A stretch of DNA of 43,919 bases, from IMG/VR virus record IMGVR_UViG_3300029813_000135, positions 1 through 43,919 of that record. One strand, 5' to 3'. A program made the translations under genes and the position numbers. Below the pieces are notes generated by a model. That model had not been told where the DNA came from. It saw only the letters and a program-made list of their open reading frames with translations, and searched no databases. The stretch is from a virus. Shown piece after piece: positions 2,667-25,039 of the stretch (position 1 is the first letter of the stretch; each line of letters opens with the position of its first letter).

Positions 2667-3032
2667 TTAGTGAGGTTGTAGCGTTAAACCTGCACGCAAT
2701 CTATCCAGCGATGCCATATTGGTATCTCCATCTTTACGCCTGAATATTTTGCGAATGTTAGGTGCTAACAACTTATTCACTTGTTTTTCCTTACTCAATT
2801 TTGCCCACCTATCTTCTGCAAATTCCACATTGTCTTTCAGAGCGTTTAACCATTTAATATATTCTCTTACGCTATCAATACGTTCTATAGGAACTGTCTC
2901 TAACATACCACTACATTCTTCTTTAGTAGTATTAATTAAATCAAAAATAGCGTTTCGTGCATCTTTATCTATGTTTGCTAATCGCTTATATAAATCAATC
3001 CAAAATTTTAACTCGTCTTTAGCGTTTCTCAT
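2667..3032 (-). CDS. Small helical protein between portal and scaffold
   Basis: A 121-residue, charged and mainly helical protein, with its start one base past the portal stop codon region and a GGGAGGG SD. It has no membrane segment or recognisable motif. It sits in the portal-scaffold interval, where small head-assembly cofactors are often found. The C-terminus is basic (RKIFRRKDGD) then Leu-rich. Function not recognised. Confidence 0.75.
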   Translation of the reverse strand: MRNAKDELKFWIDLYKRLANIDKDARNAIFDLINTTKEECSGMLETVPIERIDSVREYIKWLNALKDNVEFAEDRWAKLSKEKQVNKLLAPNIRKIFRRKDGDTNMASLDRLRAGLTLQPH

Positions 3033-4697
3033 TTACCCTCCCTTAAACATTGAACTATAACCACCACCACCAGCCAGACTCTTTGCTCCTTCTTGTCGAG
3101 CCGCCATAGCCTGTTGGGCTGCTAACTGCTCCATTAAGGCTGCCTTCTCTGCCCTCACTTCCTCATCTGTTTTCAATATCTTTTCAATACCTGGAATATC
3201 AAACGTTTCACCAAGTAACTTAAATGCTTCTCCCTCATTAAGATAGATAGGAGCAATACTACCAATGACTCTAATAAACTGAGCGATTCCCATCCGTTTT
3301 TGCTCATCTTTAAGAACCTCACTTGCCATTTTGGCCTGTATTTGCGTGTGGTATTTTTTCAAATCCTTAGGTCTTAACTGACCAAACTTCTCGTATTCTG
3401 GTGTGCCTATCGCATTTTCCCCTGCTACCTTGTCAAAAAAATCATCTGGAGCGAATCGAATCATTATATCTAATACTCTTTCTATCCAGGGAAGCCAGAA
3501 ATGACTTTCGGCATTTTTCATAAGCGTCCAGAATCTACCGCTGCCTTTCTCTGTCAACATTACTTCTGGAGTTGTCATTCTCTTGGATGGAATATTAATT
3601 TGTGTCCAGGGCGAAACCCCCATTGTGCTATATGCAGATTGTTTCAGTGAATCCATTTCAAGTGAAAGACTTTTAGTTACATCGTCAGCAGATAATGCAA
3701 CAGGAATATTAGTCATATCATTAGACATTATCATATCACCAGGTCCAGAAACTTCAAATTGTGTATATAACCCACTTGGAACAACCCATCTTGTATGAAC
3801 ATTCCTGATTAAATCATCTAACCTTAAATTAGCCAATTCATTGGTGTATAACTGTGTCCACATTAACTCATCAGCAATTCCCCAACCAAAAGGAGTGTTG
3901 CTTTCTGTAAAACATTGGCCTAAAACAAACGGAAATTTATATGGAAACTTATCTAATTTTCTAATCAAATACTTGCGGTCCATAAATGTAAGCACTTCTT
4001 CTTTAACCCTATCCCAAACCTCTGTCAACTCTATACCCTTTTTACCAGTATGCTCTCTTGGACTGTTAGAAGCATAGTAATGTTTTTCTTGAAGAGTCTT
4101 TTTAATCTTTTTGTAAGCAGCCTCGTTACCATATCTGCTTTCTAAATAATTAAGAGACACTAACTTTCGGTGTCCAGCCCACTCCACTTTATCCCAAGTA
4201 TTTGCTTTGGAATCAAAAAGAAAATTCCATAAGTTAATAACCTCTGTCTCAAAAAGTTTAGTAGTATCTATTTTACCTTGCAAGTTATAGGCAGGCATTA
4301 CCTTTACAACTGTATTACCAAAAATATTTTTATCTTGAACTCCATTATAAAGAGGCGTAAAAACATTAGGTTCACTCCAAAGGAAAGCCAATCCCTTTCT
4401 GGTTCTTCGCTCTAACTCACGCAATAAATCTGTATCACCCTTACCTGCAATCTCTACCGTTATAGCCTCAGAATAACCAAAGAAAGCCATTAATTCCCGT
4501 GCAGAAAAAGTGTTAATCATTGGGCCTATAATAGGAACGTGAACATCTGCCACAACTTCTTTTTGCTCCTCATCAGACCCTGTAATACCTCTAAAATATT
4601 TATAATATCCTTCCCAGTTAGGAGAATATTGTGAAATAAAATTATCGCTTTCCGTAAATCTTTTTTGCCATTCAAGAACTTCTTTGTCTGTATCTAT
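3033..4697 (-). CDS. Portal protein; likely start is ATA at 4697-4695
   Basis: The dodecameric portal through which DNA is packaged and ejected. About 554 residues from the proposed start. Portal-like features include a Trp/Tyr-rich N-terminus (W-Q-K-R ... Y-Y-K-Y-F-R-G), a long central alpha/beta body and a helical, Gln/Ala-rich C-terminus ending in a Gly-rich tail. The first canonical start is GTG at 4553, which has no well-spaced SD and would remove 48 portal-like residues. The open frame extends up to a TAG at 4709-4707. Exactly there, AGGGGG plus 5 bases precedes ATA, the same layout as the capsid gene's AGGGGG-5-GTG. I therefore place the start at ATA. The gene lies downstream of the terminase and of a small coiled-coil gene. 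Confidence 0.8.
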   Translation of the reverse strand: MDTDKEVLEWQKRFTESDNFISQYSPNWEGYYKYFRGITGSDEEQKEVVADVHVPIIGPMINTFSARELMAFFGYSEAITVEIAGKGDTDLLRELERRTRKGLAFLWSEPNVFTPLYNGVQDKNIFGNTVVKVMPAYNLQGKIDTTKLFETEVINLWNFLFDSKANTWDKVEWAGHRKLVSLNYLESRYGNEAAYKKIKKTLQEKHYYASNSPREHTGKKGIELTEVWDRVKEEVLTFMDRKYLIRKLDKFPYKFPFVLGQCFTESNTPFGWGIADELMWTQLYTNELANLRLDDLIRNVHTRWVVPSGLYTQFEVSGPGDMIMSNDMTNIPVALSADDVTKSLSLEMDSLKQSAYSTMGVSPWTQINIPSKRMTTPEVMLTEKGSGRFWTLMKNAESHFWLPWIERVLDIMIRFAPDDFFDKVAGENAIGTPEYEKFGQLRPKDLKKYHTQIQAKMASEVLKDEQKRMGIAQFIRVIGSIAPIYLNEGEAFKLLGETFDIPGIEKILKTDEEVRAEKAALMEQLAAQQAMAARQEGAKSLAGGGGYSSMFKGG

Positions 4698-5011: not shown

Positions 5012-6580
5012 TTACCATCCACCTTTAAATAGTTTTCTATGGCGTGGCCTCCAGCCTTTTCGGACCTTGCCGCCCTTACAATATGGACGTATATTGTTAT
5101 CTTCAAACATTTGAATCCCATAGGCTATCATATCAGGTATGGTGTCCTGGCTCATCTCCCTATAATACTTAATTTGTTTAAGAGCGGGTTCGGGAATCCC
5201 AAGATGGAAATACATTTTTCTATCGTGTAACTTAGGTTCTATTCTCATCATAATTCGTTCATCTTTGCCAGTAGAATGGTGTTTTAACTCACAAAACTTG
5301 TGCTCTACATCAGATTCCCGTATTCTCTCTTCTCCTAAAAGTTCTTTTATGGTAATTTGGCCAAAGACTTCAACGCCAAGTTTCCTGGCATCAAACAATT
5401 TATCCAATCTTATCATTTCATCAAATCTAACAGCAGGAGGCCAACCGTTACCCTCTTTAGCGTATCTTATAAACCAATTGTCCTCATTATCTCGTTGAAT
5501 TGCTCCTATACCACAAGTATCCTTCCCTCTCCCAGACGTATCAAGTGCAATCATTGTAGCAAGTAACGGGGCTTCAAACCTTTGACCATCTTCTGTTACC
5601 CGTATCACCTTACCGTCGTCATCTTCTTCCTCCCAATAGCGTATATATTCATATTTAGAGAGCGGTGCATTTTCTTCGGACACTGCTTCCAGTAAATATT
5701 GAGTGGTAAACATTTTATCGCCTCCACCATCCCTATACAAATCATCACGCTTCTGTTTAATATATTCTGGAGTAAATTTTTCAGAAAAAAACACACCTCC
5801 ATCGTTATCGTATAGAGGAATTTTACACAAAGTGGTATTATCTCTTTTTTCTAAATCAGCATACAAGTCATCTGGATGCCAGGGAGTGTGAGGATAAATA
5901 ATTGGAGTATCTATATCATTCACAAGGTTTGTAAAGTTATCGGAAAACTCTTTAACGTGATTCCTTTTAATTTCCGAGTTATAGTTTTCTCTGTTAACAA
6001 TATCATCTGCAATAATCCAATCAAAATGCCAACCCTCTGTCTTACTTTTCTCAGTAAACAAGTAAACAGTAGGCTCTTTTAACGCTGTGGCTGTTCTGTG
6101 AACTGTAAATTGAGTCTTAGACCAATCGGTAAGGGGTGAATTAACTGAGTGTTGTGGAGGTATTTCAGGGAAAATAGCTCTAAACATAGGACTTAAAATC
6201 ACATCTTTCTGTTCCTGGAGAAAAGCCTTACAAAGATTCATATTACCAGCGGTTATTGCTCCCCTGGTATTAGGATTATTGATAATTTTCCAAATTGGGT
6301 AGCCTACAGTAACCATTGAAGACTTGAAACTGCCTCGTGGAAGTCGCAGTAACAATCTTATCCAGGGTTCATACTGTATTTTGTGCATAATACTGCCGTG
6401 GAGATGCCAATTCATACAAAATTTAAGTTCTCCCGACTTTACAGCACCTTCGTGGAAGCCGCACAGATACTTTGTGCAGAGATAAAGGTCGTTTTGAAAT
6501 ATATATCTATATTTTAGTTGTTTTTCAGAAAAATGATAGGTGATTCCATTAACCTGTAGGGTTTTTCCACCCATCTTCAA
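5012..6580 (-). CDS. Terminase large subunit
   Basis: The ATP-driven packaging motor and nuclease, 522 residues, normal length for the family. A Walker A-like P-loop is at residues 81-88 (PRGSFKSS, preceded by a hydrophobic strand), Walker B at about 188-193 (WIIADD), and the RNase H-like nuclease domain begins with Asp347 in 'ALDTSGRGKD'; a further acidic site lies near 'IPDMIAYGIQMFED' close to the C-terminus. The gene overlaps the preceding putative small-subunit gene by 32 bases; an internal ATG two codons in is an alternative start. The C-terminus is strongly basic (KGGKVRKGWRPRHRK), suitable for DNA contact. Confidence 0.95.
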   Translation of the reverse strand: MKMGGKTLQVNGITYHFSEKQLKYRYIFQNDLYLCTKYLCGFHEGAVKSGELKFCMNWHLHGSIMHKIQYEPWIRLLLRLPRGSFKSSMVTVGYPIWKIINNPNTRGAITAGNMNLCKAFLQEQKDVILSPMFRAIFPEIPPQHSVNSPLTDWSKTQFTVHRTATALKEPTVYLFTEKSKTEGWHFDWIIADDIVNRENYNSEIKRNHVKEFSDNFTNLVNDIDTPIIYPHTPWHPDDLYADLEKRDNTTLCKIPLYDNDGGVFFSEKFTPEYIKQKRDDLYRDGGGDKMFTTQYLLEAVSEENAPLSKYEYIRYWEEEDDDGKVIRVTEDGQRFEAPLLATMIALDTSGRGKDTCGIGAIQRDNEDNWFIRYAKEGNGWPPAVRFDEMIRLDKLFDARKLGVEVFGQITIKELLGEERIRESDVEHKFCELKHHSTGKDERIMMRIEPKLHDRKMYFHLGIPEPALKQIKYYREMSQDTIPDMIAYGIQMFEDNNIRPYCKGGKVRKGWRPRHRKLFKGGW

Positions 6581-23058: not shown

Positions 23059-23402
23059 TTGAATGTTGTATAAGTTTTATAGCAGGGTCTTTATTTGTAT
23101 ATCTGTTATTTGCCAGAGCATACCATAGATATAATTCACAATATGAAGAATTAATAGATAAAGCCAAAAAATATAGAGACCAATATTCTATGGAATCTCA
23201 AGCAGTAAGTAAATTGGAAACAGAAATAAAACAATTGAAACCGCACAATTTACGAATGGCAAGAAAACTTTTAGATGCAGTGGGTATCAATTTAGCAAAA
23301 GAAATGGGCCCATATCTGAGGGAAGCAGATTACTTTGACTGGAAATACACAAAAATTGCAGATTTGTTTTGGGGAGAATGGAAAGAAAATGAGAGAATTT
23401 AA
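23055..23402 (+). CDS. Membrane-anchored coiled-coil protein, paralogue B
   Basis: A 115-residue protein: membrane helix at about residues 3-20, then 'RAYHRYNSQYEELIDKAKKY' and a coiled coil. It shares RAYHRYNS and plan with the protein at 15386, indicating duplication. The C-terminus is distinct, with 'READYFDWKYTKIADLFWGEW'. ATG behind GGGGAGG. Confidence 0.8.
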   Translation: MIECCISFIAGSLFVYLLFARAYHRYNSQYEELIDKAKKYRDQYSMESQAVSKLETEIKQLKPHNLRMARKLLDAVGINLAKEMGPYLREADYFDWKYTKIADLFWGEWKENERI

Positions 23403-23763
23403 TGTAGAAAAGTGGAATAGTATTTTATCTTTTTGGGAAAGCCAGAAAACGGGGACTCCAATTTGCGTTCTCAAGAGTGTCGGGCAATTGGATGACCTTA
23501 TTGAGGTTCTAACGTTTGTTAAAAATAACGCCATTTTCGACGAGAGAAGCTCTGTATCAGTAGGAATGTATGAGAACACGGCTGCCTGGATGGCAGAGAA
23601 TCCCCATAGACCTCGATGGAATCTCTCTGTAAAAATTGGCAATCCTAAGGGACGTAGTAGACAACCGTCAGAACAGACATTTAGTGGAAATCAACAAGCG
23701 GAAGAATTACCTCACGGATTCGAAGGAAATCCACAGAAACGAAAGTTACCTTGGGAAAAATAA
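23389..23763 (+). CDS. Early protein with disordered C-terminus
   Basis: A 124-residue protein. A start at 23335 would overlap the previous gene by more, so ATG 23389 is chosen. The N-terminal 80 residues are folded (VEKWNSILSFWESQKTGTP...), followed by a Gly/Ser/Gln/Arg-rich tail ending 'NPQKRKLPWEK'. The folded N-terminus with a flexible tail recalls single-stranded DNA-binding proteins, but motifs are not clear. Its stop lies 3 bases before the tmRNA-like RNA. Confidence 0.72.
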   Translation: MREFNVEKWNSILSFWESQKTGTPICVLKSVGQLDDLIEVLTFVKNNAIFDERSSVSVGMYENTAAWMAENPHRPRWNLSVKIGNPKGRSRQPSEQTFSGNQQAEELPHGFEGNPQKRKLPWEK

Positions 23764-23766
23764 TAT

Positions 23767-23840
23767 GGGGGTGAAAGGTTCGACTGGTAGTAAGGAATTA
23801 CCTTACCACCAGGACTCGGTTTCAATTACCGACACCTCCA
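23767..23840 (+). ncRNA. tmRNA-like tRNA-like domain lacking the mRNA-like part
   Basis: A 74-nt element between two genes. Acceptor stem: GGGGGTG (23767-23773) with CACCTCC (23833-23839), giving a G3:U70 wobble, the alanine identity pair of tRNA-Ala and tmRNA; A at 23840 is the discriminator. D-loop-like GGTTCGACTGG (23777-23787) resembles the tmRNA GG-A-TTCGAC-GG motif. A hairpin of 12 bp with one A/C mismatch (CTGGTAGTAAGG / CCTTACCACCAG, loop AATTA) takes the place of tmRNA helix 2 and everything beyond. GAC (23813-23815) then precedes a perfect T-arm (TCGGT-TTCAATT-ACCGA), as in tmRNA. There is no CCA in the DNA, no D-stem, no anticodon loop with U33 and no tag ORF. Alternatives: a degenerate tRNA or a processed mRNA element. 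Confidence 0.82.
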
Positions 23841-23859
23841 ATACAATAAGGAGGAAACA

Positions 23860-24117
23860 ATGAGTAGAGAAATCAAGACAAATATAAAAGGCAGTGAAGT
23901 TGTTATTAATACAAAAAACCATAGAGAGCAATGTATGGAGTTAGTGAGAACCGCTGTGAGAGTAAGCACTCCAGGATTGCGAAAATTAATAGAAGGTGAA
24001 AATGTTATACAGATAAGAATTGACGACGAGTATCTATCGTTTATTGTTATCGAATATGTAACACGTCAAACACCAGGATTAGCCGCCTTTACATATCCGA
24101 GGCTTACAGATGAGTAA
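23860..24117 (+). CDS. Early protein of unknown function
   Basis: An 85-residue protein behind AAGGAGG, between the tmRNA-like RNA and the RNA ligase. Strand-helix alternation (TNIKGSEVVINTKNHREQCMELVRTAVRVSTPGLRKLI). Overlaps the ligase start by 8 bases, so the two are translationally coupled. Function not recognised. Confidence 0.75.
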   Translation: MSREIKTNIKGSEVVINTKNHREQCMELVRTAVRVSTPGLRKLIEGENVIQIRIDDEYLSFIVIEYVTRQTPGLAAFTYPRLTDE

Positions 24118-25039
24118 TCAAAGTTTTAACTTACCGCACTTACCATCTTTCCCTAAAATTTTTCACATTGGAGAAAGACAAATAACAGAACTGTTTAACG
24201 GCGTAGTAGAGATAACGGAAAAGGTTGACGGCAGTCAATTTAATTTTGGGAAGGACAAAGAAGGGGAATTGGTATATAGAAGCAAGGGACAAGACTTAAC
24301 CTATCGTCCAACACCTAAAATGTTTGAATTGGCGGACAACTATATCCATTCAATAGACCATAAAATACCTATGGATACATACTTCTTTTGCGAATTTCTC
24401 AATAAGCCTCACCATAATGTCTTAAATTATGAGCGAGTGCCAAAGAATAATTTGTATCTCTTTGGCGTAATGGAAGGCCAGGTATTTGTTAATGATGCTT
24501 CTACACTATATAAATATGCTGACTCTCTGGGTATAGAGCGTCCCAACATTTTATTCTCTGGGCTGGTAAACACTATTGAAGAGTTAGAAGTATACTTGTT
24601 GTTTAATAGTATTCTTGGCAGAGAAATTGTTGAAGGTATTGTAGTGAAAAACTATAATCAGTGTGCGGTCATCACCTCTAACCTTATTCTACCAATGGCA
24701 ATGGGTAAGTATGTCAACGAAAAGTATAAAGAACGGCACAACAAAGACTGGAAACAATCGAAGTCCAGAAAGGGTAAACTGGAAATGTTTATCCAAAGTT
24801 TTAGAAGTGAAGCCCGCTGGCAAAAAGCTGTTCAACATTTGCGAGAAGCGGATAAATTAGAAGGTGCTCCACGAGACATAGGCAACTTAATAAAAGAGAT
24901 AGCCGTAGACCTTACGGAAGAGGAAGCAGGTAATATTAAAGAGGGACTATATAAAATTTTTAAGAAAGATATTGTCCGTGCAGCACAGGGTGGATTTCCC
25001 GAATGGTATAAAGAACAATTAGCCAAACAAGCGTTTTAA
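24110..25039 (+). CDS. RNA ligase (nucleotidyltransferase superfamily)
   Basis: A 309-residue ligase that would seal RNA ends through covalent lysyl-AMP. Motif I is K38-V-D-G-S, Arg/Ser/Lys at 57-59 fits motif Ia, 'YFFCEFLN' near 91-98 fits motif III, 'EGIVVK' at 175-180 fits motif IV, and K200 in 'MGKYVNEKYK' fits motif V. The set resembles T4 Rnl2-like and other phage RNA ligases. Phages use such enzymes to repair RNAs, particularly tRNAs cut as a defence. Its closeness to the tmRNA-like RNA suggests a shared role in RNA repair, which is inference. Confidence 0.88.
   Translation: MSNQSFNLPHLPSFPKIFHIGERQITELFNGVVEITEKVDGSQFNFGKDKEGELVYRSKGQDLTYRPTPKMFELADNYIHSIDHKIPMDTYFFCEFLNKPHHNVLNYERVPKNNLYLFGVMEGQVFVNDASTLYKYADSLGIERPNILFSGLVNTIEELEVYLLFNSILGREIVEGIVVKNYNQCAVITSNLILPMAMGKYVNEKYKERHNKDWKQSKSRKGKLEMFIQSFRSEARWQKAVQHLREADKLEGAPRDIGNLIKEIAVDLTEEEAGNIKEGLYKIFKKDIVRAAQGGFPEWYKEQLAKQAF

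Follow-up and report, generated by a model that had tools for sequence, protein, structure and literature searches.

A phage RNA reduced to the tRNA-like domain of tmRNA belongs to a covarying family that probably jams or hijacks host ribosome rescue

Introduction

The closest described counterpart of the RNA reported here comes from mycobacteriophage DS6A, whose tmRNA is listed as 'TLD only', i.e. as consisting of the tRNA-like domain (TLD) (tmRNA Website 11587; PMC4131195, PMC11915505). The portion of PMC4131195 that cites Mao et al. 2009 states that a TLD similar to that of DS6A strongly inhibits tmRNA whether or not it can be charged, perhaps by titrating SmpB. In tmRNA, alanine is specified by the G.U third pair, and SmpB sits at the elbow formed by the D- and variable loops in the place of an anticodon arm (PMC3985003, PMC8363625), with the UUCGAC region of the D-loop being an SmpB contact (PMC8363625). 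A tmRNA fragment was seen on the ribosome together with SmpB and EF-Tu (PMC8363625), and a crystal structure shows SmpB bound to an engineered TLD in which a short hairpin connects the 5' and 3' parts (PDB 2CZJ; PMC3985003). Tagless tmRNAs are further known from the mitochondria of jakobids and oomycetes and from two plastids, including one of about 65 bp in Mallomonadaceae (PMC11915505). Phages such as phage G, Wildcat and Melnitz carry full or two-piece tmRNAs, which are phage ssrA-type genes like the one described below but have kept the message part (PMC4131195, PMC9004378).

Here, we investigated a stretch of viral DNA of 43,919 nucleotides (IMG/VR record IMGVR_UViG_3300029813_000135, positions 1 to 43,919; called the window throughout), in which a preliminary description made from the letters alone had recognized a tmRNA stripped to its tRNA-like domain and had taken it to be without a described phage counterpart. 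The DS6A precedent contradicts the latter statement (PMC4131195, PMC11915505); it is the sole phage TLD-only example that we found in the open-licence literature, and a report on the family that escaped us is possible. What is new is the number and spread of TLD-only phage RNAs, their covariation, their unbroken alanine identity and their apex module.

Results

The RNA in the window is composed of the following parts:

23767-23840, plus strand: whole TLD-only tmRNA-like RNA, 74 bases, through discriminator A73
23767-23773, plus strand: 5' strand of the acceptor stem, GGGGGTG, 7 of 7 pairs formed, carrying G3 of the G3:U70 pair
23774-23778, plus strand: linker AAAGG, single-stranded, D-stem absent
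23779-23784, plus strand: UUCGAC D-loop motif, aligned to the family model
23785-23811, plus strand: P2 hairpin in the minimum free energy (MFE) fold, with one A.C mismatch and a 5-nt loop
23812-23815, plus strand: GGAC variable-region motif, read in the sequence and aligned to the family model
23816-23832, plus strand: T-arm TCGGT-TTCAATT-ACCGA, perfect stem, from sequence and fold
23833-23839, plus strand: 3' strand of the acceptor stem, CACCTCC, carrying U70
23840, plus strand: discriminator A73, read in the sequence, A in all 113 distinct copies of the family

All tmRNA hallmarks named in the preliminary description (G3:U70, the 7-bp acceptor stem, A73, the D-loop motif, GGAC and the T-arm) are thus present at these positions. 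The D-loop motif in its wider form, GGTTCGAC, occupies 23777-23784 and has no D-stem around it, and the encoded sequence 23767-23840 does not include a 3' CCA. The P2 hairpin stands at the position of the tag and the pseudoknots: the stretch from UUCGAC to GGAC comprises 27 nt closed by the hairpin, it contains neither a tag frame nor a resume codon, and it leaves no room for pseudoknots, which bears out the proposed loss of the mRNA-like and pseudoknot part. The hairpin that closes the gap had been given 12 base pairs; the hairpin itself stands, but with 11 standard pairs and one A.C mismatch in the MFE fold instead of 12 unbroken pairs. The MFE of the RNA is -31.4 kcal/mol compared to -19.0 kcal/mol for shuffled sequences (z = -4.07), and none of 200 shuffles was as good.

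By its anatomy, a complete TLD without a tag, the window RNA fits the TLD-only phage tmRNA type represented by DS6A. Both are tagless phage RNAs with little beyond the tRNA-like domain of tmRNA; DS6A is, however, a single case from a mycobacteriophage, and the likeness is judged from anatomy and description. The TLD of PDB 2CZJ has the same design, 5' and 3' TLD parts joined by a hairpin, but is man-made from Thermus tmRNA and has a UUCG loop. The organelle tmRNAs share the lack of a tag reading frame but differ in being the organelle's own tmRNA, kept together with a nuclear SmpB, whereas the phage adds its RNA to a host that presumably has a tmRNA of its own. Permuted tmRNA genes, in which the 3' part comes first, have a different order from the window RNA.

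A search with the tmRNA covariance model had been put forward as a test of the proposal, and its outcome was supportive: in a genome search with the Rfam one-piece tmRNA model RF00023, positions 23767-23843 were aligned to model positions 1-374, i.e. from the first to the last, at 44.3 bits (E = 3.9e-18), just under the gathering cut-off of 47. The RNA shares with this model the acceptor stem with G3:U70, A73, the UUCGAC D-loop, the start of P2, GGAC and the T-arm, and it differs by lacking the tag frame and the pseudoknots and by its length (74 nt versus 374 model positions). The absence of tag and pseudoknots rules out that it is a canonical tmRNA. In 39 of 41 related records RF00023 scored at or above the cut-off, the top matches being the short RNA itself, and the other matches in these 41 phage records, which include many tRNA genes, reached at most 33 bits. 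ARAGORN and Rfam at the gathering threshold called nothing at the window RNA. The tRNA-model search that had likewise been suggested was run as well; RF00005 did not match the window RNA, and ARAGORN called no tRNA there. A default cmscan alignment of the stretch to tmRNA (7.6 bits) was misaligned and was dropped. We also built a covariance model, R1, from 40 other phage copies, excluding the window. R1 gave the window RNA 54.9 bits (E = 9e-13) with the next best match at 11.1 bits, and because the model was built without the window, this score excludes a chance origin of the RNA.

Copies of the RNA were collected with two pattern scans of viral contigs, in which UUCGAC, GGAC, part of the T-arm and a short gap were fixed, while acceptor pairing, position 3:70 and base 73 were left free. 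The short gap shuts out normal tmRNA. The first scan returned 84 stretches, 63 of them with acceptor and T-arm intact, and the second returned 113, nearly all intact. Scan results, four copies from cultured phages and the window added up to 154 parsed copies (113 distinct, mean length 79 nt). G3:U70 was present in 153 of the 154, including every correctly parsed copy; in the sole exception (L118) the acceptor was misread, an inner UUCGAC being the one with the better stem. A73 was constant in every parsed copy, and the acceptor stems comprised 33 different ones, all intact. In cellular genomes (257 billion bases), a stricter pattern that matches 56 viral loci gave 12 matches, only two of which were good, and both also occur as viral contigs: one lies on a single-cell contig, apparently a duplicate of a viral contig record, and the other in Parafrankia. 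In this Parafrankia EUN1f copy (L105), a tRNA-like gene at 2892-2963 lies 14 nt before the TLD-only RNA at 2978-3052, and its viral-contig version (L087) has an integrase.

ARAGORN overlooks nearly all genes of the family, which are also unannotated in cultured phages; copies that are unannotated or lie under a hypothetical ORF occur in the Streptomyces phages LuckySocke, GiJojo, pSt2308, Shaeky and BRock and in Stenotrophomonas phage Jojan60. On the minus strand of one record (L139, 5905-6228), ARAGORN calls a tag-bearing tmRNA of 324 nt that looks spurious, probably due to a wrong 5' end; a complete TLD-only RNA (5908-5987) makes up the 3' part of this call.

Compensatory changes in related phages, a further check named in the preliminary description, were found in abundance. 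Across 40 copies, 96.3% of the cells of an 18-pair structure were paired compared to 68.5% in shuffles, a percentage that is biased for the acceptor and the T-stem, which our parser demanded, and not for P2, which it did not demand. Both-side changes amounted to 201 cells versus 55 in shuffles and the covariation score to 0.717 versus 0.150, and when the structure was slid along the alignment the paired cells dropped to 40-51%. Acceptor, P2 and T-stem all covary strongly across the family, P2 with both-side changes at all six positions, and a hand tally of 51 distinct copies of the first scan agreed with this result. A decayed ssrA copy, picked up by a phage that integrates in ssrA, or an attachment site would hardly look like this. 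Some mycobacteriophages do have the 3' half of ssrA adjoining an integrase; in the present family, however, both halves are present, fully paired and heavily covarying, and the 33 acceptor stems are all intact. A tyrosine integrase (PF00589) is absent from the window and present in 6 of 46 related records. We therefore regard a relic or attachment site as very improbable. In the mycobacteriophages Shandong1 and Milly (L108 and L109, around position 3000), a 3' half of ssrA lies beside the integrase and is evidently the attachment site; halves of this type are easily mistaken for a TLD-only RNA.

The apex of P2 reads AA[AG]NCC or a close form in 71 of the 113 distinct copies, in most cases with a small hairpin and GGA after it; this A-rich internal loop with its small apical hairpin is common but not universal. 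The window RNA has a plain P2 hairpin without the AA[AG]NCC...GGA module, and the window is therefore a divergent member with regard to its P2 part. In the Streptomyces phages Alone3 (L113, 2956-3032) and Riptide (L206, 2477-2553), the A-rich apex is kept and the D-loop, GGAC or the T-stem is altered, which would suit a separate function of the apex.

The window RNA nearly fills a gap of 96 nt (23764-23859) between two ORFs in a run of nearly touching genes, its neighbours being as follows:

23335-23763, plus strand: upstream ORF of up to 142 aa, stop 3 nt before the RNA, no family match
23860-24117, plus strand: downstream ORF of 85 aa, no family match, preceded by GGAGG at 23850-23854
24110-25039, plus strand: RNA ligase gene (PF09414, E = 3.8e-11) within this gene run, about 270 nt downstream of the RNA

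This intergenic position in a dense gene run, and the finding that in several phages the RNA directly precedes the major capsid gene, would suit a processing signal, i.e. a tRNA-like fold that recruits RNase P and RNase Z to a polycistronic transcript and sets the ends or the stability of neighbouring messages, with no later role for the RNA itself. Acceptor and T-arm would suffice for such cutting, and UUCGAC, GGAC, the constant G3:U70 and the covarying P2 helix are left unexplained; in tRNA arrays, moreover, the neighbouring tRNAs already offer cut sites. We consider a processing signal improbable.

Genes for tRNAs occur in 47 of 153 loci, in 35 of them at a distance of at most 200 nt from the RNA, almost always on the same strand and with spacings down to 0-1 nt. 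Several copies lie within 0-9 nt of a tRNA gene, as expected for an RNA trimmed by tRNA enzymes. In a number of small phages (L017, L044, L056, L164, L177 and others) the RNA is flanked by prohead protease or portal genes on one side and by the major capsid gene on the other, at a distance of about 120 nt from the latter (gene identities assigned by eye from the sequences). Since the neighbours of the RNA are tRNA genes in some phages and structural genes in others, its expression time may differ among phages.

In Streptomyces phages an RNA ligase gene is found about 1.6-1.9 kb downstream of the RNA at the end of the tRNA array, and a functional link between ligase and window RNA is possible. 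The ligase gene of the window and of the Streptomyces phages, and the tRNA arrays common around the RNA, could be accommodated if the RNA lured host defences or toxins that target tRNA or tmRNA, or if the phage RNA ligase encoded nearby used it as a substrate. The RNA has no anticodon, however, and thus offers no bait to anticodon nucleases, the ligase is present in only 14 of the 46 records bearing the RNA, and no gene family recurs beside it, which makes a lure or ligase substrate quite improbable. Clustering of the neighbours gave no shared partner gene, the largest cluster covering 12 of 113, and the context therefore gives no pointer to a pathway.

Neither an SmpB gene (42 related phage records) nor a full-length tmRNA (41 records) was found; many of these records are fragments, and the absences are correspondingly provisional. 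With the region and with the right half of the window as queries, BLASTN against 50,697 phage records gave nothing real, and the terminase of the window has distant relatives only (22-25% identity). Relatives of the window RNA ligase (L002-L009) and of its DnaB (L115) have no intact copy nearby; in one of the ligase relatives, a divergent candidate that scores 35.5 bits with R1 lies at another place in the record.

Discussion

The RNAs of this family probably jam or hijack the host ribosome-rescue system. For the window RNA, we assign a probability of roughly 0.52 to an alanylated decoy that diverts SmpB and stalled ribosomes from host tmRNA. This is the best-supported function because a DS6A-like TLD strongly inhibits tmRNA according to the portion of PMC4131195 discussed above, and the decoy was among the functions offered in the preliminary description. 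A purely passive SmpB sink, offered alongside it, is harder to reconcile with the retention of G3:U70 in all correctly parsed copies. The constancy of this pair across otherwise free acceptor stems, and that of A73, neither of which had been fixed in the scans, suggests that charging, and thus ribosome entry, matters.

In such a decoy, the RNA would be part of the transcript of several small genes close to replication genes and would be processed like a tRNA, with CCA presumably supplied by a host enzyme. The host alanyl-tRNA synthetase would charge it via G3:U70 and A73, and SmpB would bind the elbow of D-loop and GGAC, replacing the anticodon arm, as judged from the conservation of these determinants; with no smpB in the 42 phage records, host SmpB would have to serve. 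The resulting Ala-TLD:SmpB:EF-Tu complex may compete with host tmRNA for SmpB and stalled ribosomes. With resume codon and tag absent, trans-translation would be left unfinished, and since the TLD-only RNA could not complete it, tagging and proteolysis of stalled products would be predicted to fall during infection, with a putative benefit to the phage.

Several observations count against the decoy. The RF00023 score of the window RNA is below the cut-off (44.3 versus 47 bits), the D-loop or T-stem is damaged in the cultured-phage copies of Alone3 and Riptide, and a shared partner gene is lacking. In addition, the reported inhibitor worked uncharged, and the strict conservation of G3:U70 exceeds the need of a passive sink.

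The main rival of the decoy is a tagless rescue RNA, which would serve phage translation rather than obstruct host rescue. A charged TLD with SmpB would enter ribosomes that had stalled on phage mRNAs that are cut or incomplete, the nascent chain would become peptidyl-Ala-TLD, the broken mRNA would leave, and the chain would be freed by drop-off, by peptidyl-tRNA hydrolase or by a backup factor. Such an RNA needs the alanine identity, which is kept without exception and which a passive sink does not need, and it explains the constancy of G3:U70 equally well as the decoy. The many copies in tRNA arrays would be part of translation-support kits, and the tagless mitochondrial tmRNA, kept together with SmpB, is thought still to aid incomplete mRNAs (PMC11915505). 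We nevertheless consider tagless rescue unlikely, since the DS6A-like TLD, as reported in the cited part of PMC4131195, inhibited tmRNA, and no ribosome-freeing step is known that would follow peptidyl transfer without the stop codon of the tag.

Tentatively, both the decoy and tagless rescue can be placed in a wider frame, a widespread class of tmRNA-derived, alanine-chargeable phage RNAs that would act on host rescue by taking over nascent chains, thereby either blocking tagging or rescuing ribosomes without a tag, with the A-rich P2 apex making a contact of its own in most members. The existence of over 100 distinct copies that have kept the alanine identity points to many phages disturbing or borrowing host rescue by way of an RNA of about 75-80 nt. 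For the question of what phages gain by acting on trans-translation, the family offers a directly testable case, and its members are predicted to serve SmpB, AlaRS and EF-Tu as minimal substrates of natural origin.

Weaker R1 candidates of 31-38 bits were found in Microbacterium phage Skylord (L111, 2938-3027), Gordonia phage GMA2 (L110, 2963-3041), a Synechococcus MAG (L099, 4779-4851) and a viral contig (G076, of L008, 35426-35521). These are possibly divergent family members with an altered D-loop.
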